Assembly: GCA_019637095.1 (NCBI GenBank)
Contig: JAHBWG010000005.1
Span: 1-64,000, forward strand
Origin: Sandaracinaceae bacterium
GTDB taxonomy: Bacteria; Myxococcota_A; Polyangia; Polyangiales; Sandaracinaceae
Direction: 5' to 3'
Length of the DNA stretch: 64,000 nucleotides
A program made the translations under genes and the position numbers. The notes under the pieces are model-generated. The model saw only the letters and a program-made list of their open reading frames with translations, was not told the origin of the DNA and ran no database searches. Shown piece after piece: positions 2,524 to 24,008 of this stretch (within the stretch, counting starts at the first letter, position 1; each line of letters starts with the position of its first letter).

Positions 2524-3792
2524 TCAGCGGCGCGTGAAGCGCAGGACGTGGCGGTAGACGAAGGTGTCGCCCGTCTGTCCCTGGTTCCACGCGAGCCGCG
2601 CGGTCGTCGGATCGTCGACGTCGTTCGCATAGTCGTAGAGGATGATCTCGCCCTCGCGCTCGCCCTCGAGCCACGCGGGGAAGCACGTGTCGCCGCCGCT
2701 CGGCAGGTCGAGCACGTAGGCGATCCGATCCTCGCCCTGAACGTACCGCCAGAGCGCGCAGCGCTTGGGCGTCTGCGTGTACGGGATCTGGTTGGCGGCG
2801 GTCTGCGCGGCGTGGGTCCCGCGCCGCGTCATCAGGTCGTAGTGCCCCGTCTCGGTCACCTGCCGCCGGGCGACGAGGTACGCCTCGCCGTCGTGCCAGA
2901 ACATGAGCGGGCTGTCGTACTTGCGCGGGTCGATGCGGCATTCCCAGTGCGCGAGCGCGCTCGCGGGCGCGCGGCACACCATGGAGCCCCAGCCGTTCTC
3001 GTCGCCCGGCTCGTTGCGGATCACGCCGAAGAGCGTCCCGTCGTCGCCGATCACGAAGTCCGTCTCCGAGCCACCGCCGCGGTACACGGTGCGCCGCGCG
3101 GGATCGACGGGGGTCCACGCGCGGCCATCGAGCGTGGTGTAGAGGTCGGACTCGAGCGGCAGCCCGTTGAAGAGGTAGATGTTCTCGCCGCCGAGGTAGG
3201 CGGTCATGTACGGGGTGCCGCGCTCGGTGCGCGTGCGCCACGCGATGTAGCCGTCGAGGCCGTCGACCGGCGCGAGCGCGCTCCACGCGCCGCTCGCCGC
3301 GCGCTCCGCCACCACCACGCCCATCGGCTCGAAGGCGAGCGCGTTCGTGCCGAGCACGGAGACGTAGAGGAAGAGCGAACCGCCGAGCGCGAGCCACCGT
3401 GGCTCGCGCAGGTCCGTCCCCATGGCGTAGCTCGCCTCGAACGTCCAGCGCTCCTCGTCGGCGCTCGAGACGACGTGGATGACGGTGTCCGGGCCCGCGT
3501 AGTGGTCGGGCGCGGTGCGCCACGCGAGGTAGACGCGGCCCTCGTGGCGGATCACGTCGAGGTTGTTGTTCGAGTGCTGCGGGACCGTCTCGGTGGGCAG
3601 GCCCGCGCTCGGGACCACGCGCCGCGTGCTCAGCACCTCGACGTCGTGGCGTCCCGGCTCCGACGGCGGCGGCGCCGGGAGCGGCGCGTCCCCCGCGTCG
3701 AGCGGAGGTGAGGCGTCGTCGCCCGCGTCGGGGGTCGTCGCGGGGCCGTCGCAGGCCACGAGCAGCAGCGAGAGGGAGGCGAGCGCGCGCAC
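2524..3792 (-). CDS. Lipoprotein with a predicted beta-propeller fold
   Basis: The product has 422 residues. The N-terminus MRALASLSLLLVAC is a lipoprotein signal with the acylated Cys at residue 14, followed by a Pro/Asp/Ala linker typical of these genomes. The rest consists of repeated beta-rich segments with aromatic motifs (for example RVYLAWRTAPD, GSLFLYVSV and EAYLVARRQ), spaced as in sialidase or glycosidase five-bladed propellers. No catalytic set could be assigned with confidence. The gene follows the protease gene on the same strand with a 28-nt gap and is probably co-transcribed with it. A surface carbohydrate- or protein-binding role is a guess. Confidence 0.65.
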   Translation of the reverse strand: MRALASLSLLLVACDGPATTPDAGDDASPPLDAGDAPLPAPPPSEPGRHDVEVLSTRRVVPSAGLPTETVPQHSNNNLDVIRHEGRVYLAWRTAPDHYAGPDTVIHVVSSADEERWTFEASYAMGTDLREPRWLALGGSLFLYVSVLGTNALAFEPMGVVVAERAASGAWSALAPVDGLDGYIAWRTRTERGTPYMTAYLGGENIYLFNGLPLESDLYTTLDGRAWTPVDPARRTVYRGGGSETDFVIGDDGTLFGVIRNEPGDENGWGSMVCRAPASALAHWECRIDPRKYDSPLMFWHDGEAYLVARRQVTETGHYDLMTRRGTHAAQTAANQIPYTQTPKRCALWRYVQGEDRIAYVLDLPSGGDTCFPAWLEGEREGEIILYDYANDVDDPTTARLAWNQGQTGDTFVYRHVLRFTRR

Positions 3793-16763: not shown

Positions 16764-17681
16764 ATGCGCGAGCGCGGTCTCTCTCGGGCGTGGCTCCTCG
16801 GGGTGATCGGCGCGCACCTGCTCGCGCCGACCTCCGCGGCGCGCGCGCGCGGCGACGCGATCGCGTGGGACGCGCCTTGCGGTGACCCGTCGGCCTTCGC
16901 CGCGCGGGTGGAAGAGCTCGGCGGCGAGCTCGAGGGGGTCGAGGTGGAGGTCGGGGTCTCGGCGGTCGAGGAGGGCTTCCACGGGCGCCTGCGCGTGGTG
17001 CGTGGGGACGAGCGCGCCGCGCGCGAGATCGACGACGCGGGGTGCGAGGACGTGCTCGACGCGCTGGCGATCGCGGCCGCGCTCGCGCTGCGGGCCCTCG
17101 GAGCCCCGGCGGCGCCGGTGGCTCTGGAGCGCGCGCCGGCCGCGAGCGAGATCCCCGAGGCGCTCGCACCGCAGGGGCTCGCGGCGCGGCTCGGCGTCGG
17201 CGCGGCGCTGCGCGGCGGGCTCGGGCCGGTGCCGGACGCAGCGCTCGCGCCCGCGGTCGTCGTCGCGCTCGAGCTCGGTCCCCTGTGGGCGGGGCTGTCG
17301 GTCTCGTACTGGCCCGAGGCCGCCGCGACGCTCGACGAGCGCGGGCGCGGCGTCACGCTCTTCGCGCTCGGTACGACGCTCGAGGTCGGCTATCGCATCG
17401 GCGGCGAGGTGGCCGTGGTGCCGTGCGCGGTCGTGGAGTCGAGCGTGGCGTTCGCGCGCGGGACGGGCGTCGAACGGCCGCGCAGCGAGGCGACCTGGGT
17501 CCTCGACGCAGGCGCCGCGGTCTGGCTGACGCTCGATCTCGAGGATCGCGTGCGCCTCTTCGCGCGCGCCGAGCTGCTCGTCGGGCTCGCGCGGCCGATC
17601 TACGGCGTGGAGGCCGAGGCGGTGTTCGCGAGCCCGCTCCTGCGCGGGGCAGGCGGCGGCGGCGTGCTGGTGATGTTCTGA
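16764..17681 (+). CDS. Exported protein, possible outer-membrane barrel
   Basis: The product has 305 residues. A signal peptide (MRERGLSRAWLLGVIGAHLLAP, ending near SAARA) is followed by an acidic globular part (30-110) and a C-terminal half of alternating beta strands ending in VLVMF, a terminal Phe as in many outer-membrane barrels. A TAGCAT hexamer lies 9 nt upstream of the start. The last 82 bp overlap the end of the convergent metallopeptidase-like gene, which is long for a real overlap but possible. Function unknown. Confidence 0.6.
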   Translation: MRERGLSRAWLLGVIGAHLLAPTSAARARGDAIAWDAPCGDPSAFAARVEELGGELEGVEVEVGVSAVEEGFHGRLRVVRGDERAAREIDDAGCEDVLDALAIAAALALRALGAPAAPVALERAPAASEIPEALAPQGLAARLGVGAALRGGLGPVPDAALAPAVVVALELGPLWAGLSVSYWPEAAATLDERGRGVTLFALGTTLEVGYRIGGEVAVVPCAVVESSVAFARGTGVERPRSEATWVLDAGAAVWLTLDLEDRVRLFARAELLVGLARPIYGVEAEAVFASPLLRGAGGGGVLVMF

Positions 17682-18886
17682 TCTTCGGTGCGCGCGAGGC
17701 GCAGCGTCTCGGGCACCCGCGGGTAGGACGCGAAGGGCGCGGGGAGCTCCAGGCGCGCTCGCCCCGCCGCGAGGAGGAACGCCGCCTCGGGCCGCTCCTC
17801 GTAGGACGCGATCACGTCCGCGAGGTCCGCCCGCTCCCCGATGTAGCTCGCGCGTTCGGGCAGCGACGCGAGGACGTAGGGCACCCACGGATAGCCGGCG
17901 TAGCGATCGAAGACCGAGCCGATCGTCCAGAACCCGCGACGCTCCGCGTTCTCCTCGCAGAGGAGGAAGTCGTCGTTGATCTCGAGGATGTGCCGATCGG
18001 CGAGCCACTCGGGGAACACGCGCTGGTGCACGACCGCCTGCCACCACGTGAGACTGAGCTCTTCGGCGAGGAGCGTGCTCCGCGGCGCGATCCCGCCGCG
18101 CAGCTCGTTCGCGAGGTAGAGCAGGTGGAGCACCTCGTGGAGCACCTCGTCGACCGCGATGAAGACGTCCATCGCGATCGTGCCCGCGGGGTGATCGGAG
18201 ATGCGCGCGTAGCGCGTGCGGCGCAGCTCGCGGTAGAACTCGAACGAGCCGATGAACTGCCCTTCGTGCGCGGCGCCGGCCTTCGACGCGAGGTTCGTCT
18301 GGCAGGTGAGGCCTTCCTCCAGCATGAGCTCGATCAGCGCGGCGACGTCCGCGAAGACGGTGCTCTCGGCCGCGTGTGCGCGCAGCACGCGGATGTACCG
18401 CGCGAGCGCGTCGCAGGTCTGGGGCGCGTGGCGGTACGCGAGCGCGACGGTCGGGGGAGAATCGGCGCCGAGCCGCGGGCCGAGGCGCGTCGAGCGCGGC
18501 GGCGCGAGCGCCGGCGTGGTCAGCGGGGAGGGCGGCGGTCGGAGGCGCGCGAGCTGCTCCGCGAGCGAGTCGAGCGCGCGCTCTTCGATCACCCCCGCGA
18601 TGCCCCAACGCCCGAGCGCGAAGGCCGCCTCGACGTCGCCCGTCGCGACGATCGCGAGCACGCACCTGGGGTGCAGCACGCGCTGGGGCCGGCGCGGATC
18701 ATCGTAGAGCGCGCGCAGGAGCTCCGCGGCACCGAAGAGGTCATCGTCGCTGCGCGCGTCGACGACCAGCGCGCGCAGCGCGCCCGACGCGGCGGCCCTC
18801 ACGACGCTGGGGATCGTCGCGCGCGGTGTCCCGCCGAGCTCGACCGCGCCGGCTCCGAAGTAGAGGACGTCGCGTCGCGGAGGCAC
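17600..18886 (-). CDS. HEVLH-motif protein with an N-terminal receiver-like domain
   Basis: The product has 428 residues with GTG 18886. Residues 1-115 resemble a degenerate response-regulator receiver fold (LRALVVDARSDDDL, then CVLAIVATGDVEAAFALG and GIAGVIEERAL), but a standard phosphoacceptor context is not clear. Residues 245-280 contain DEVLHEVLHLLYLANE: an HEXXH zinc motif at 250-254 with Glu275/276 about 21-22 residues later, the gluzincin layout. It is therefore a candidate zinc peptidase, probably cytoplasmic because no signal peptide is seen. It is co-transcribed with the upstream lipoprotein gene under the ECF-type promoter at 19178-19208. Confidence 0.6.
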   Translation of the reverse strand: MPPRRDVLYFGAGAVELGGTPRATIPSVVRAAASGALRALVVDARSDDDLFGAAELLRALYDDPRRPQRVLHPRCVLAIVATGDVEAAFALGRWGIAGVIEERALDSLAEQLARLRPPPSPLTTPALAPPRSTRLGPRLGADSPPTVALAYRHAPQTCDALARYIRVLRAHAAESTVFADVAALIELMLEEGLTCQTNLASKAGAAHEGQFIGSFEFYRELRRTRYARISDHPAGTIAMDVFIAVDEVLHEVLHLLYLANELRGGIAPRSTLLAEELSLTWWQAVVHQRVFPEWLADRHILEINDDFLLCEENAERRGFWTIGSVFDRYAGYPWVPYVLASLPERASYIGERADLADVIASYEERPEAAFLLAAGRARLELPAPFASYPRVPETLRLARTEDQNITSTPPPPAPRRSGLANTASASTP

Positions 18887-18889
18887 GGC

Positions 18890-19174
18890 TCAGCCTCGGA
18901 TCCCGTCGGGGTAGTACGCGTCCGGCGCGTCGGCGTCCTCTGGCGCGCCGCCGTCGAGACGCACCTCGGGCCTCGCCGCGTCGGCGATCATCGCGGCGTC
19001 GAACGGGGTCGTCGCGTCGGCGCCATCGGGCGGCATCCTCCCGGGTCCTCCGGCGTCGGTCGTCTCCGTCGGGTGGTGTGCCTCGACGCAGCCGGCGAGC
19101 GGCGACGCGGCGAGGGCGGTGAGCGCGGCGAGCGCGAGGGCTCGGCTGTGCGTGTGCTTCGGCTTCGAGGTCAT
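18890..19174 (-). CDS. Small lipoprotein, likely ECF-regulated
   Basis: The product has 94 residues. A signal peptide (SRALALAALTALAASPLAGC) has its lipobox Cys at about residue 29, followed by a short His/Asp/Pro-rich tail without a recognised domain. The ATG at 19174 is exactly 3 nt after the bipartite promoter motif shared with the ECF sigma gene, so its mRNA is probably leaderless. It is followed after 3 nt by the HEVLH protein gene. Function unknown; it may be an envelope sensor or a stress-induced surface protein. Confidence 0.65.
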   Translation of the reverse strand: MTSKPKHTHSRALALAALTALAASPLAGCVEAHHPTETTDAGGPGRMPPDGADATTPFDAAMIADAARPEVRLDGGAPEDADAPDAYYPDGIRG

Positions 19175-19177
19175 GCC

Positions 19178-19208
19178 CGTGAGTGCCGGGCCAGCGCGGT
19201 TCCGTCAC
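19178..19208 (-). promoter_or_regulatory. ECF-type promoter, copy 1 (leaderless)
   Basis: On the minus strand, GTGACGGA (19208-19201) is followed after exactly 15 nt by CACTCACG (19185-19178), and the ATG at 19174 begins after 3 more nt. The same two boxes with the same three distances occur at 19281-19311 and 21837-21867 on the other strand. This is read as the -35 and -10 elements recognised by the ECF sigma factor encoded next door. Confidence 0.75.
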
Positions 19209-19280
19209 GGGAATCCGCCCGCCTCGGGATCGCCCGCGGCGCCCGTCTCGTCTGCCTCGTAGACTCCGTGTGCGAATCCG

Positions 19281-19311
19281 GTGACGGAAGCGCCAGGCCG
19301 CGGCACTCACC
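19281..19311 (+). promoter_or_regulatory. ECF-type promoter, copy 2 (autoregulatory)
   Basis: GTGACGGA (19281-19288), 15 nt, CACTCACC (19304-19311), 3 nt, then GTG 19315. It would drive the sigma factor gene itself and the two genes coupled to it. The promoter is divergent to copy 1: the two -35 boxes are 72 bp apart. Because the -10-like box nearly touches the start codon, the transcript should be leaderless. Confidence 0.75.
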
Positions 19312-19314
19312 TTC

Positions 19315-19887
19315 GTGCTGACCCTCCGCGTCCCCATCGGCGAGCGTTCCGGTGCACGATCGGCGGCCGGCATGGCGCTCGATCGACACGGCGCGGCGAC
19401 GCTCGGGCGGCTCTACGAGGAGCACGCCGACGCAGTCTTTCGGGCGCTCCGGCGGTGGGGCGTGTCCGACTCGATGGCCGACGACGCGCTGCAGGAGGTC
19501 TTCTTGATCGCGTCGCGCAAGCTGGCAGAGTTCGAGGGACGCTCGACCCATCGCACGTGGCTCTTCGGGATCGCGCTACGGGTGGCTCGCGGCGTGCGAC
19601 GCACGCGGACCCACGAAGCGATGGGGGAGATCGAGCCGGAGGGTGACGATGCGCCAGTGGACGATGAGGTCGACGCGAGGCGGGCGGCGCGCCAGCTCGA
19701 TGCGCTCCTCGCCACGCTCGACGACGCACAGCGCGAGGTCTTCGTGATGGCGAGCCTCCACGATCTGAGCGCGCCGGAGATCGCCGAGATCACCGGCGCG
19801 AACCTGAACACCGTCTACTCGCGCCTGCGACTCGCGCGTCAGCGTCTCGCCGACGGATTGGCGCGATCGGGACGGAGGCGGCCGTGA
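19315..19887 (+). CDS. ECF RNA polymerase sigma factor
   Basis: The product has 190 residues from GTG 19315, or 171 from ATG 19372. GTG is chosen because it sits at the fixed 3-nt distance from the promoter motif seen at three genes. Region 2 (about residues 30-95) contains LYEEHADAVFRALRRWG and DDALQEVFLIASRKL, and region 4 (about 125-180) contains LDDAQREVFVMASLHDLS and ANLNTVYSRLRLARQRL, the helix-turn-helix that contacts the -35 box. It directs RNA polymerase to the GTGACGGA-N15-CACTCAC(C/G) promoters. The stop overlaps the next start (GTGA), so it is translationally coupled to its putative membrane regulator. Confidence 0.92.
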   Translation: MLTLRVPIGERSGARSAAGMALDRHGAATLGRLYEEHADAVFRALRRWGVSDSMADDALQEVFLIASRKLAEFEGRSTHRTWLFGIALRVARGVRRTRTHEAMGEIEPEGDDAPVDDEVDARRAARQLDALLATLDDAQREVFVMASLHDLSAPEIAEITGANLNTVYSRLRLARQRLADGLARSGRRRP

Positions 19888-20621
19888 GCGACGCGAGGGA
19901 AGACGATCTCGGCGAGCTCGGCGAGCTGATCGCGCGTGCGCGCCGCGACGGCCCCGGCGCCGAGCGCCTCGGGGCGGTGCGAGCCCGGTTGGAGTCGCAG
20001 GTCGGGTCGCTCGACGCGCCGCCGCTGCCCAGCGCGTCGGGGGGCGCGGTGGCGATCACCCTCGGCGTCGCGGCGCTGGCTGCGCTGACGATCGGGCTCG
20101 CGGGGTGGCTCGTGGTGCGCGGTGGCGCGCCCGCGGACGAAGCGGCGAGCGAAGACGCGGCGAGCGAGGCGGAAGCGCCCGCCGCGGTGCCCTCGACCGC
20201 GCCGGGCCCGCCCGCATCGCCGGTCCCGCGCGATCCGACGACGGAGGCCGCGCTCGACGGCCTGCGTGCGCCGGCCGAGGTGCTCCCGCGACCGGACGCC
20301 CGCGGTGACGAGACCGCGGACGCGCCGCGCGCGCCTCGCGGCGCTCGGTGGGCGCGAGACGCGCGCGGTGCGCCCCCCGTCGGCTCGGCCGTGGCGGACA
20401 CGTCGGCGCCGCCCGCGCCTTCGGCCGATGCGCGTGCCTCCACGCTGCGCGAGGAGATCGCGCTCCTCGATCGCGCGCTGCGCGCGCGCGAAGCCGGCGA
20501 GACGGCGCGGGCGCGCGCGGCGCTCGAGGAGCACGCCGCGCGTTTCCCGTCCGGCCGGCTCCGCCCCGAGCGCGAGCGCATGCTCGCGGAGCTCGCGGCC
20601 GGCGGGACCCCGGCTCCGTGA
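19884..20621 (+). CDS. Single-pass membrane protein, candidate anti-sigma factor
   Basis: The product has 245 residues. The N-terminal 50 residues are helical and charged, consistent with a cytoplasmic sigma-binding segment. One membrane helix is at about 53-78, then a long Pro/Ala/Asp linker (80-185) and a C-terminal helical periplasmic piece (about 187-240) with TPR-like spacing (EAGETARARAALEEHAARFP). No zinc (HXXXCXXC) anti-sigma motif is present. The anti-sigma role rests on its position, coupled to the ECF gene, and its topology. A general envelope sensor is the alternative. Confidence 0.6.
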   Translation: MSDAREDDLGELGELIARARRDGPGAERLGAVRARLESQVGSLDAPPLPSASGGAVAITLGVAALAALTIGLAGWLVVRGGAPADEAASEDAASEAEAPAAVPSTAPGPPASPVPRDPTTEAALDGLRAPAEVLPRPDARGDETADAPRAPRGARWARDARGAPPVGSAVADTSAPPAPSADARASTLREEIALLDRALRAREAGETARARAALEEHAARFPSGRLRPERERMLAELAAGGTPAP

Positions 20622-21820
20622 GGGGCTCGCTCCACCGCGCGGCCCTCGCGACGTTCGCGCTGCTCGGCTGCGACTACGCGGTGTGGCTGAGCGAAGACCT
20701 CGACGCGGGCGAGCGCGCCGACGCGGCCGCGCTCCGCGACGCGGCGAACGATGCGGCGCCAGACGCGGACCGCCTCGACGCGGACGGCCCCGATGCGGAC
20801 GGCCCCGATGCGGGCGCGCAGCGCGCGTGCGAGCGCGGGCCGGTGCCCCTCGGCACCGCGCGCGCGACGGATCCGCTCTCCCAGCCGACGTTCGCGGTGA
20901 GCGGGCACCTCGGCTCGCCGCGCTACGGCGTCCTCGTGCCACCCGCGGCGAGCCGGATCGCGACCGAGGACACCCGGCTCATCATCGCCGACGCCGACGG
21001 CGCGACGCTGCGCGAGCGCGCGCTGCGCGTCACGGACGGCGCCGGCGCGCCGGCCTCCACGGCGACGCTCCACGCGCTCCCGGCCGATGGCGAAGGCTTC
21101 CTCATCCTCGGTCCGACGGCGATCTGGCTGCTCTCGGCGGACGGCGAGGGGGAGCCCCTCGCGCTCGCCGTTCCGCCGCGCGCAGAGTGGCAGCGCAGCG
21201 CCGGGTGGCTGGACGACGATCGCTTCGCGTTCGTGAGCGACGCGCCGGCGCTGCCTCTCGCGGTGCTCGAGCGCGCTGCGCGCGCCGTGAGCGCGACGAC
21301 CGTCTCGGCAGTGGACGCCGCGTGCGTGCACATCGAGCGCGGCGGCGTGACGATCTCGCGCGCGGGGCCGACGACGGAGGTCGTGGTGTACGAGCCCGCC
21401 CTCGACGGCGCCGAGGCGCTCCGATCTGCGTGGGACGACGGCACACCGCTCGCGGGGAGGCTCCTCGCGGCGGCGACCCACGGGAGCGAGCGCGTCTGGA
21501 TCGTCCGGGACGCGAACGAGTTCCGCACGGCGGTCACCGCCGTGCGCGTGCCCGCCGGGAGCGAGCCGGTGCCCGGGAGCTCGATCACGCTGCTCTCGCC
21601 CATCACGGCGTCGCTCGAGGGGACGGTGTTCGCCATCCAGGGCTCGGGGCCGGCGCTGTGGACGTACTCGCTCGAGCTCGCGACGTTCTCCCCTCTCCCG
21701 GCGCCACCGGGCGACGCGCTCGTGGAGCCCGAACGCGACGGCGAGCGGCTCGCGGTGCTCGGCTTGCGGCCGGATGGCGCGAGCGACCTCGCGCTCGAGC
21801 TCTCGTGCGGCCTGCGCTGA
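20618..21820 (+). CDS. Lipoprotein of unknown function in the ECF operon
   Basis: The product has 400 residues with GTG 20618 overlapping the previous stop (GTGA). The signal MRGSLHRAALATFALLGC has its lipobox Cys at 18. A repeat-like Asp/Ala/Gly-Pro linker follows, including two DADGP units. The remaining 320 residues are beta-rich, with blade-like repeats (GFLILGPTAIWLLSADG, RFAFVSD, RVWIVRDANEF), suggesting a WD/propeller-like fold. As the third coupled gene it may serve as the extracytoplasmic sensor feeding the membrane regulator; this is inference. Confidence 0.6.
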   Translation: MRGSLHRAALATFALLGCDYAVWLSEDLDAGERADAAALRDAANDAAPDADRLDADGPDADGPDAGAQRACERGPVPLGTARATDPLSQPTFAVSGHLGSPRYGVLVPPAASRIATEDTRLIIADADGATLRERALRVTDGAGAPASTATLHALPADGEGFLILGPTAIWLLSADGEGEPLALAVPPRAEWQRSAGWLDDDRFAFVSDAPALPLAVLERAARAVSATTVSAVDAACVHIERGGVTISRAGPTTEVVVYEPALDGAEALRSAWDDGTPLAGRLLAAATHGSERVWIVRDANEFRTAVTAVRVPAGSEPVPGSSITLLSPITASLEGTVFAIQGSGPALWTYSLELATFSPLPAPPGDALVEPERDGERLAVLGLRPDGASDLALELSCGLR

Positions 21821-21836
21821 CGTGCGGATCTTCCGC

Positions 21837-21867
21837 GTGACGGATCGGGTGCGGCGCCGCACTCACC
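21837..21867 (+). promoter_or_regulatory. ECF-type promoter, copy 3 (leaderless)
   Basis: GTGACGGA (21837-21844), 15 nt, CACTCACC (21860-21867), 3 nt, then ATG 21871. Boxes and distances are identical to those in front of the sigma factor gene. It begins 17 nt after the stop of the preceding operon, so the following gene has its own ECF-dependent transcript. Confidence 0.75.
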
Positions 21868-21870
21868 GGA

Positions 21871-22422
21871 ATGCGCCTCGCGTCGTCCTCCGTCTGTGCG
21901 GCGATCCTCCTCAGCGCGCTCGCCTGCGACGAGCCTCGCGCTCCCGCGGCCGGTCCGCCCGACGCGGGGCCTCCATGGGATGCGGCGCTGCCCGACGCAG
22001 GGGATCCCGAGCCCGATGCGGGCGCGGTCGTCGCCGACGCGGGGCCTGCGTCCGGGGCGGAGGCGGGCCCGCCCGTCTCGGATCAGCTCGCTGCGCTCTA
22101 CGAAGACGTGCTCGTGGTTCGCTGCGGCGGCCCGCTCTGCCACGGCCCCGGGGTGAACGAGAACACGTATTACGGGTTTCGTCCGGCGCTCCAGATGCCG
22201 GACCCCGCGACCGCGCGCGCCGTGCTCGTCGATCGTCGCGTCGAGTGCATGTCCAGCGGCGACGACCGAATCCGCGTCGTCCCGTTCGACCCTGAGGCGA
22301 GCGCGATCCTGACGGTCGCCGAGGATGGCCTCTGCGGCAGGCGGCACAACGTCGTCGTCGGTGCCCTGACACCCGACGAGCTGGCCGCCATCGAGCGTTG
22401 GATCGCGGCTGGCGCGCCGTAG
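21871..22422 (+). CDS. Lipoprotein with a CX4CH haem-like motif
   Basis: The product has 183 residues. Signal with lipobox LSALAC (Cys19), then a Pro/Asp/Ala linker to about residue 68. The C-terminal domain contains RCGGPLCHGPGV: Cys85, Cys90 and His91 form a CX4CH motif, a known but uncommon variant of the c-type haem site, and the end (LTPDELAAIERWIAAGAP) is the C-terminal helix typical of cytochrome-like domains in these bacteria. It may bind haem; the two other cysteines (at about 126 and 155) could instead make disulfides. It is a member of the ECF regulon by promoter. Confidence 0.6.
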   Translation: MRLASSSVCAAILLSALACDEPRAPAAGPPDAGPPWDAALPDAGDPEPDAGAVVADAGPASGAEAGPPVSDQLAALYEDVLVVRCGGPLCHGPGVNENTYYGFRPALQMPDPATARAVLVDRRVECMSSGDDRIRVVPFDPEASAILTVAEDGLCGRRHNVVVGALTPDELAAIERWIAAGAP

Positions 22423-22469
22423 CCCGATCGCCGCGCGGCGCGCGTGCTCGCGGGCGCCGAGATGACGAG

Positions 22470-24008
22470 ATGAAGAAGATCGTCCCTCCCTCCCGGCTGC
22501 TCTACGCTCTGGGGGTGACGCGGATCGGGATCGACTTCGGGACGACGCGCACCGTCGTCGCCGTGGCGGAGGGGGGGCGCTATCCCGTCGTCTCGTTCGA
22601 GGACGCGGGGGAGTACCGGCCGTGGGTGCCGACCATGGCCGCGCTCGACGGCGAGCGGTGGGTGTACGGCGAGGCGGCGGCCGCGCTCCTTCGCCGCGGC
22701 GGGCGCGGCGTGCGCTCGATCAAGCGGGCGCTCGGGGCGCTGGCGCCGGAGGCGAACGTGCCGGGCTTCGAGGTGACGGCGCTCGAGCTCGCGACCGGGT
22801 TCTTCGCGGCGCTCCACGCGCGGCTCCGGGAGCGCGAGGAGCTCGGCGGCGAGCTCGAGGCGATGCTCGCGGTGCCCGCGAACGCGTCGAGCCGGCAGCG
22901 CTTCCTCACGCTCGAGGCGGCGCGGCGGGGGGGCTTCTCCATCGCGGGGATGCTCAACGAGCCGAGCGCGGCGGCGATCGAGCTCGCGCTCCGCAGCAGC
23001 CTCAGCCCGCGGAGCCCGAAGCGCTACGTGGTGGTCTACGACCTCGGCGGCGGGACGTTCGACACCTCCGCGGTGAGCCTCGACGGACGCCGCTTCGAGC
23101 TCCTGGCCTCCGAGGGCATCGCGCGCCTCGGCGGCGAGGACTTCGACGAGGTGATCCTCGCGGCGTGGGAGGCGGCGCGCGGCGCGCCCGTCCCCGAGGC
23201 GCTGCGCGTCGCGGCGCTCGAGGCGTGCCGGCGCGCGAAGGAGCAGCTCGGGCCGCAGAGCCGGCGCCTGCTGCTCGATCCGGACGAGGCGCTCGGGCTC
23301 GAGCCCTGCGTGCTCGACGCGAGCGCGATCTACGCGACGTGCGAGCCGCTGATCGCGCCGAGCCTGACGTTGCTCGACGCGATCTTCGCGGGGCTGCCCG
23401 CCGAGCTCGACCCGGAGGATCCGCGGCAGCTCGGCGCGATCTACCTCGTCGGCGGCGCGGCGGCGTTCCCCGCCGTGCAACGCATGTTGCGCAAGCGACA
23501 CGGCAAGAAGGTGCTGCTCGCGCCGGAGAGCCACGCGGCGACCGCGGTCGGCCTCGCGGTGGCGGCGGACCCCGACGCGGGCGTGCTCGTGCGAGAGGCC
23601 ACGACGCGCTGGTTCGGCGTGTGGCGCGAGGGGGACGCGGGGCGCGACACGGTGTTCGATCCGATCCTGGCGAAGGACGCGCGCGCCGAGGCGGACGGGC
23701 CCATCGTGGTCGAGCGCGCGTACCGCCCGGTCCACACGGTCGGGCACCTGCGCTACGTCGAGTGCACGCGGCTCGACGCCGAGGGCCGCCCCGACGGCGA
23801 CCTCGCCCCGTTCGGGGAGCTGCGCTTCCCCTACGACCCGGCGCTCGCGGGCGCGAGCGACCTGGCCGCGCTCCCGATCGAGCGGCGGCCGGAGCTCGGC
23901 GCGCAGGTGATCGTGGAGCGCTACGTGTACACGCCCGACGGCCGCATCGAGGTGCACATCGAGAACCGCACCGCCGCGTACGGGCGCGATCTGGTGCTGG
24001 CGAGCTAG
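22470..24008 (+). CDS. Hsp70 (DnaK)-like ATPase with a short C-terminus
   Basis: From ATG 22470 the product has 512 residues. An in-frame GTG at 22515, six nt after TACGCT, is an equally good leaderless start and would begin just before the ATPase. The nucleotide-binding domain shows phosphate-1 IGIDFGTTRTVVAV, NEPSAAAIELAL, phosphate-2 YDLGGGTFDTSAV, GGEDFDEVI and the adenosine-site YLVGGAAAFPAV. After about residue 355 only about 155 beta-rich residues follow, without a normal substrate-binding domain and lid, so it is shorter than DnaK (about 638). It is likely a specialised Hsp70 without classic chaperone cycling, convergent to a TPR gene. Confidence 0.85.
   Translation: MKKIVPPSRLLYALGVTRIGIDFGTTRTVVAVAEGGRYPVVSFEDAGEYRPWVPTMAALDGERWVYGEAAAALLRRGGRGVRSIKRALGALAPEANVPGFEVTALELATGFFAALHARLREREELGGELEAMLAVPANASSRQRFLTLEAARRGGFSIAGMLNEPSAAAIELALRSSLSPRSPKRYVVVYDLGGGTFDTSAVSLDGRRFELLASEGIARLGGEDFDEVILAAWEAARGAPVPEALRVAALEACRRAKEQLGPQSRRLLLDPDEALGLEPCVLDASAIYATCEPLIAPSLTLLDAIFAGLPAELDPEDPRQLGAIYLVGGAAAFPAVQRMLRKRHGKKVLLAPESHAATAVGLAVAADPDAGVLVREATTRWFGVWREGDAGRDTVFDPILAKDARAEADGPIVVERAYRPVHTVGHLRYVECTRLDAEGRPDGDLAPFGELRFPYDPALAGASDLAALPIERRPELGAQVIVERYVYTPDGRIEVHIENRTAAYGRDLVLAS

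Follow-up and report, generated by a model that had tools for sequence, protein, structure and literature searches.

The window, a 64,000-nt stretch of the genome of a Sandaracinaceae bacterium (contig JAHBWG010000005.1, positions 1 to 64,000), very probably encodes a small, self-contained ECF regulon, in which one invariant promoter precedes three loci and is predicted from the sequence to give leaderless mRNAs. The components of the regulon, in their order along the window, are the following.

17600..18886, − strand: 428-aa HEVLH-motif protein, second gene of the divergent operon; the ortholog in the sister genome G003 is 55% identical
18890..19174, − strand: predicted 94-aa lipoprotein that opens the divergent operon; its box-preceded G003 ortholog is 50% identical
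19179..19208, − strand: predicted promoter box GTGACGGAA-N13-GCACTCAC, serving the small lipoprotein/HEVLH operon; the same box is present at the orthologous operon in G003 (contig C334)
19281..19310, + strand: predicted promoter box serving the ECF sigma operon, with 4 nt to GTG 19315
19315..19887, + strand: ECF sigma factor (Pfam), 190 aa if it starts at GTG 19315, 171 aa if at ATG 19372
19884..20621, + strand: 245-aa protein with one predicted transmembrane (TM) segment, presumed anti-sigma factor (from hydropathy and homologous loci)
20618..21820, + strand: predicted 400-aa lipoprotein, whose gene closes the sigma operon as the third; its GTG start overlaps the preceding stop
21837..21866, + strand: predicted promoter box serving the cytochrome-like lipoprotein gene; the same box is present at two related genes in G003 (contigs C17 and C364)
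21871..22422, + strand: predicted lipoprotein of 183 aa; its single domain is c-type cytochrome-like but diverged (CGGPLCH, CX4CH)

The earlier note on this DNA had reported the promoter box three times, and all three copies of GTGACGGA-N15-CACTCAC (19208–19179 on the − strand, 19281–19310 and 21837–21866 on the + strand) are indeed free of mismatches. Dinucleotide shuffles of the window contained on average 0.14 matches with up to two mismatches, and none of 100 shuffles reached three. The boxes, the spacer and the distance to the start codon had also been described as identical. This is in agreement with our analysis: the gap between CACTCAC and the start codon is 4 nt at each of the three sites (GGGC before ATG 19174, CTTC before GTG 19315, and CGGA before ATG 21871), which is equivalent to the pattern CACTCAC(C/G)-N3-RTG given in that note. 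Pooling of the window sites with the four sites of G003 (n = 7) yields the consensus GTGACGGAW-N13-GCACTCAC, present in one orientation throughout, and when this consensus is searched in the window with up to three mismatches, the three sites are the only matches. The G and W at the inner edges of the boxes are conserved asymmetrically. No two of the seven sites share the 13-nt sequence between the boxes, and their flanking sequences are unrelated.

A search for the motif beside start codons throughout the genome had been proposed earlier, and a search of the organism's own genome (9.25 Mb) for the box returned one further exact match beyond the window and none with one mismatch. The additional match covers the 5' end of the uvrB coding sequence, GTG start included (MTDPFALVTH; G000:C132:94962–94991, − strand; L053:3492 and below). 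As it is located in a coding start and has a T in place of the G that precedes CACTCAC at all other sites, this match is probably due to chance, and uvrB was rejected as a member of the regulon. With two mismatches allowed, 10 sites were found in the own genome, compared with three for the reversed control. The two-mismatch sites of the own genome and of G003 were set aside, since they exceed the reversed control only two- to threefold.

The box is restricted in its distribution. Among 97 genomes of relatives searched, it was found in exact form in two, the own genome and G003, which represents a different genus of the same family and contains four copies; the reversed control never matched. 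In a scan of 84,980 species genomes, in which the records of the window's own genome were possibly not included, a stricter pattern (the box with a start codon 4–5 nt behind it) was found at three places, all in one genome, that of the sister (MAG Deltaproteobacteria bacterium UWPOB_DELTA5). The sigma factor has a similar distribution. When it was searched for in 318 genomes of the class, the G003 protein scored 215 bits and the next best 144 bits, so that G003 is the one further genome in this set with a true ortholog. This ortholog is 67% identical to the window protein, and the 23 residues around the recognition helix differ at a single position. Both the box and the sigma ortholog are thus confined to the same two genomes and occur together, and the evolutionary sample is small, comprising the two genomes that hold the system.

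All four G003 sites precede lipoprotein genes. The site on contig C334 precedes the ortholog of the small-lipoprotein/HEVLH operon, on a contig different from that of the sigma gene, and two further sites (C17 and C364) precede CXXCH cytochrome-like lipoproteins, each on a separate contig. The fourth site is followed by a gene for a 657-aa lipoprotein, for which BLASTP detected no relation to the 400-aa lipoprotein of the window, and then, ∼37 nt later, by the sigma gene, which is therefore located inside an operon preceded by the box in both genomes. The target classes are the same, the places differ, and the 13-nt spacers differ, which argues for control in trans and against a copied DNA segment. 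Joint control of three units, namely the sigma gene, the operon of the lipoprotein and the HEVLH protein, and the gene of the CX4CH lipoprotein, had been proposed earlier and is strongly supported at the sequence level by these unlinked G003 orthologs with an identical box.

The central gene had previously been assigned as an ECF sigma factor, and Pfam confirms the assignment, with matches to Sigma70_r4_2 (6.5e-15) and Sigma70_r2 (5.2e-9). Region 2 spans residues 33–92 and region 4 (r4_2) residues 126–178 of the 190-aa form, with a linker of 33 residues between them and no other sigma domain, which corresponds to the ECF (group IV) arrangement of sigma2 and sigma4 alone with a linker below 50 residues. 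In the window and in G003, an identical box precedes the sigma operon and the targets, so the promoter is probably shared, as for positive autoregulation. The start of the 245-aa gene overlaps the sigma stop codon (GTGA), and at four further loci a comparable gene overlaps or directly adjoins a homologous ECF gene. The 245-aa protein, with its single TM segment, is the likely anti-sigma factor, but no family model of Pfam or NCBIfam, anti-sigma families included, matched it.

The HEVLH motif, which has the HEXXH form of metallopeptidases with a zincin fold, is invariant in three homologues of the 428-aa protein. This protein had no Pfam or NCBIfam match; its AlphaFold model (pLDDT 49) was too poor for use, and a fold search of the PDB with it gave nothing below an E-value of 0.001. 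The family is rare, being present in 4 of 318 genomes, and its members are ∼400–430 aa long (window 17600–18886; L092:1592–2926); in the low-confidence model the N-terminal part seems receiver- or Rossmann-like. One homologue, in G037 (58% identical), has no upstream box, so the HEVLH protein also exists outside the regulon.

The cytochrome-like lipoprotein of the window is 42% and 35% identical to its two G003 relatives. The putative heme-binding motif reads CXXCH in both relatives, whereas the window copy has CX4CH. Pfam gave no match for these lipoproteins, and the AlphaFold model (pLDDT 44) was too poor for use. All three (window 21871–22422; L050:2090–2653; L052:1055–1636) have a His where their relatives carry Met-Pro, possibly a change of heme ligand, which would fit His/His ligation. 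The single-domain CXXCH cytochrome-like lipoproteins of the family (L100, L102 and L106) resemble them in having Cys-x-x-Cys-His early in the domain, an RVxxG/D element, and W-I-x-x-G-A at the end; the three regulon members differ from these proteins by the shared His for Met-Pro, and the window copy also by its CX4CH. Directly behind the regulon, at 22398–24008, the window contains a gene for an HSP70-like ATPase that has no copy of the box.

The two boxes are invariant and have an ECF-like spacing, the regulon includes an ECF gene in each of the two genomes, and box and sigma factor occur together; the window sigma factor is therefore the best candidate for the protein that reads the box. 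In the following scheme, we infer that the sigma factor binds the box, where exactly transcription starts, that the 245-aa protein acts as anti-sigma factor, and that the signal comes from the envelope. On an envelope signal, the sigma factor would be set free from the single-pass membrane protein that the adjacent gene encodes. RNA polymerase bound to the sigma factor would then read the −35 box GTGACGGAW, 13 nt, and the −10 box GCACTCAC at three promoters, upstream of the sigma operon itself, of the divergent lipoprotein/HEVLH operon and of the gene for the cytochrome-like lipoprotein. Transcription would begin at the start codon or within ∼3 nt of it, and the mRNAs would be translated without a Shine-Dalgarno sequence.

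Leaderless mRNAs are suggested by the position and geometry of the box together with a genome-wide leaderless signal. At six of the seven sites, the room between the box and the start codon is 4–5 nt, which is too short for a Shine-Dalgarno sequence. The first base of the start codon lies 5 or 6 nt behind the −10 box, and GTGACGGA begins at −34 relative to this base. In the RpoE4-type promoters of S. meliloti, for which starts have been mapped, the −35 box GGAAT begins at −34 (as counted from the printed sequences, with the last base taken as the start site; PMC6180224), and the start sites of HrpL promoters are 3–7 nt behind the −10 box (PMC4149516). This geometry predicts that transcription starts at the start codon of the box-preceded genes. 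The seventh site (G003:C17) is followed by a GTG 38 nt downstream with GGAGG before it, and is thus a leadered target.

In the own genome, TANNNT ends 6–11 nt before the candidate start in 18% of genes, compared with 3–5% at control distances, and the peak is sharp at 6 nt, a spacing at which the first transcribed base would coincide with the start codon. The gene and start calls behind this profile were crude, so the percentages are rough estimates. Values for other genomes were 14% (G003), 21% (G005), 9% (G001) and 13% (G037), and 5% in G281 and G310, which belong to another family of the order (controls 2–3%). Leaderless housekeeping promoters therefore look common in the own genome and the family. 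Several lipoprotein genes carry a sigma70-like −10 box (TACGAT, TAGGAT) that ends 6–7 nt before ATG or GTG, at 3792 (−) and 8375 (+) in the window and at L112:12617 (−), L114:3134 (−), L115:1342 (+), L116:16515 (+) and L120:13337 (−). An earlier study (Zheng et al. 2011, PMC3160421) predicted leaderless genes for 8 of 33 delta-proteobacteria and put them at 15.8% of genes. In those TA-led genes, the −10 box is also directly before the start codon, and the proportion is close to the 18% found here. However, they represent housekeeping TANNNT boxes, whereas in the regulon the box of an alternative sigma factor has the same placement. As the TANNNT signal is family-wide and was preceded by the prediction for delta-proteobacteria, the layout of the regulon can be regarded as a local form of a family habit. 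The leaderless transcription proposed earlier thus fits the geometry and the genome-wide signal, but it would be a habit of the family as a whole, and one sister target is leadered.

The earlier note had moved the start of the sigma gene from ATG 19372 to GTG 19315, and the position fits, with GTG 19315 at the same distance from the box as both ATGs, but the extra codons are weakly coding and not clearly conserved. The regulon and promoter could be as described and the sigma factor could still start at ATG 19372, with a leader of ∼57 nt, so that the lipoprotein mRNAs alone would be leaderless; we consider this a serious possibility, although not the probable one. In its favor, the coding signature of the 19 additional codons is weak, with GC values of 0.79/0.68/0.79 for positions 1/2/3 compared with 0.76/0.50/0.86 in the rest, these codons show no clear conservation in G003, and GTG is inefficient as a leaderless start in E. 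coli (PMC3616915). However, no Shine-Dalgarno sequence precedes ATG 19372, and in the own genome TANNNT boxes with a gap of 6 nt precede nine GTG candidates and four ATG candidates. GTG 19315 is a possible start of the sigma factor.

Two other readings concern the box itself. Some other regulator that is common to these two genomes alone could in principle read it. The ends of the element are complementary (GTGA ... TCAC), and one box, aligned with the reverse complement of its partner, agrees with it at five of eight positions, as would be expected if the 30-bp element were the operator of a dimeric transcription factor with the real promoter elsewhere. This is improbable, since the two unlike halves keep their sides at all seven sites, with the asymmetrically conserved G and W at their inner edges; moreover, the element is fixed 4–5 nt before the starts, which leaves no space for another promoter between it and the gene, and in each of the two genomes the regulon includes a sigma gene. 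That the repeats are remnants of a recently duplicated segment without regulatory function would agree with the 16 exactly identical positions and the lack of one-mismatch copies, but is extremely improbable, as the inter-box sequences and flanks differ and boxes that remain identical while the proteins diverge by 33–65% between the genomes require selection.

The preferred reading, a promoter read by the ECF sigma factor, gives an unusually clean predicted sigma regulon, with an invariant promoter, a tiny set of targets, and agreement between two genera at unlinked loci, which makes the sigma–promoter pair directly testable in a laboratory host. The regulon joins several unannotated lipoproteins and the HEVLH protein in one response, and it indicates that an alternative sigma factor shares the promoter-on-start-codon layout in a family rich in leaderless genes.

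AAC and CGT cores were once regarded as hallmarks of ECF promoters (PMC8103513), and the boxes GTGACGGAW and GCACTCAC contain neither. A literature search for the box sequence found nothing relevant; the type of regulon is already known, and its promoter sequence was not found in the literature searched. Tentatively, and with slightly less than even confidence, we propose an undescribed ECF subgroup with a promoter that lacks AAC and CGT cores, controlling surface heme lipoproteins with a Met-to-His change of the second ligand and a new HEVLH family, mostly through leaderless mRNAs. The −10 box resembles the CCACNNA element of the hrp promoter of HrpL (GGAACC ... CCACNNA; PMC4149516) in its CACTCA core. 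However, the −35 box, the host lineage and the targets are unrelated, and from this resemblance in one box we do not claim membership in that group. The RpoE4-EcfR4 system of S. meliloti (PMC6180224), one of the autoregulated ECF systems with a membrane anti-sigma factor, has several features in common with the regulon: the sigma gene overlaps a membrane-protein gene, the −35 box is at −34, and the box precedes the system's own operon and a few accessory targets, which include a cytochrome c-like gene. The S. meliloti boxes are GGAAT/CGTC-like, whereas those of the regulon are GTGACGGAW and GCACTCAC, with lipoprotein targets and the start codon at the predicted start site.
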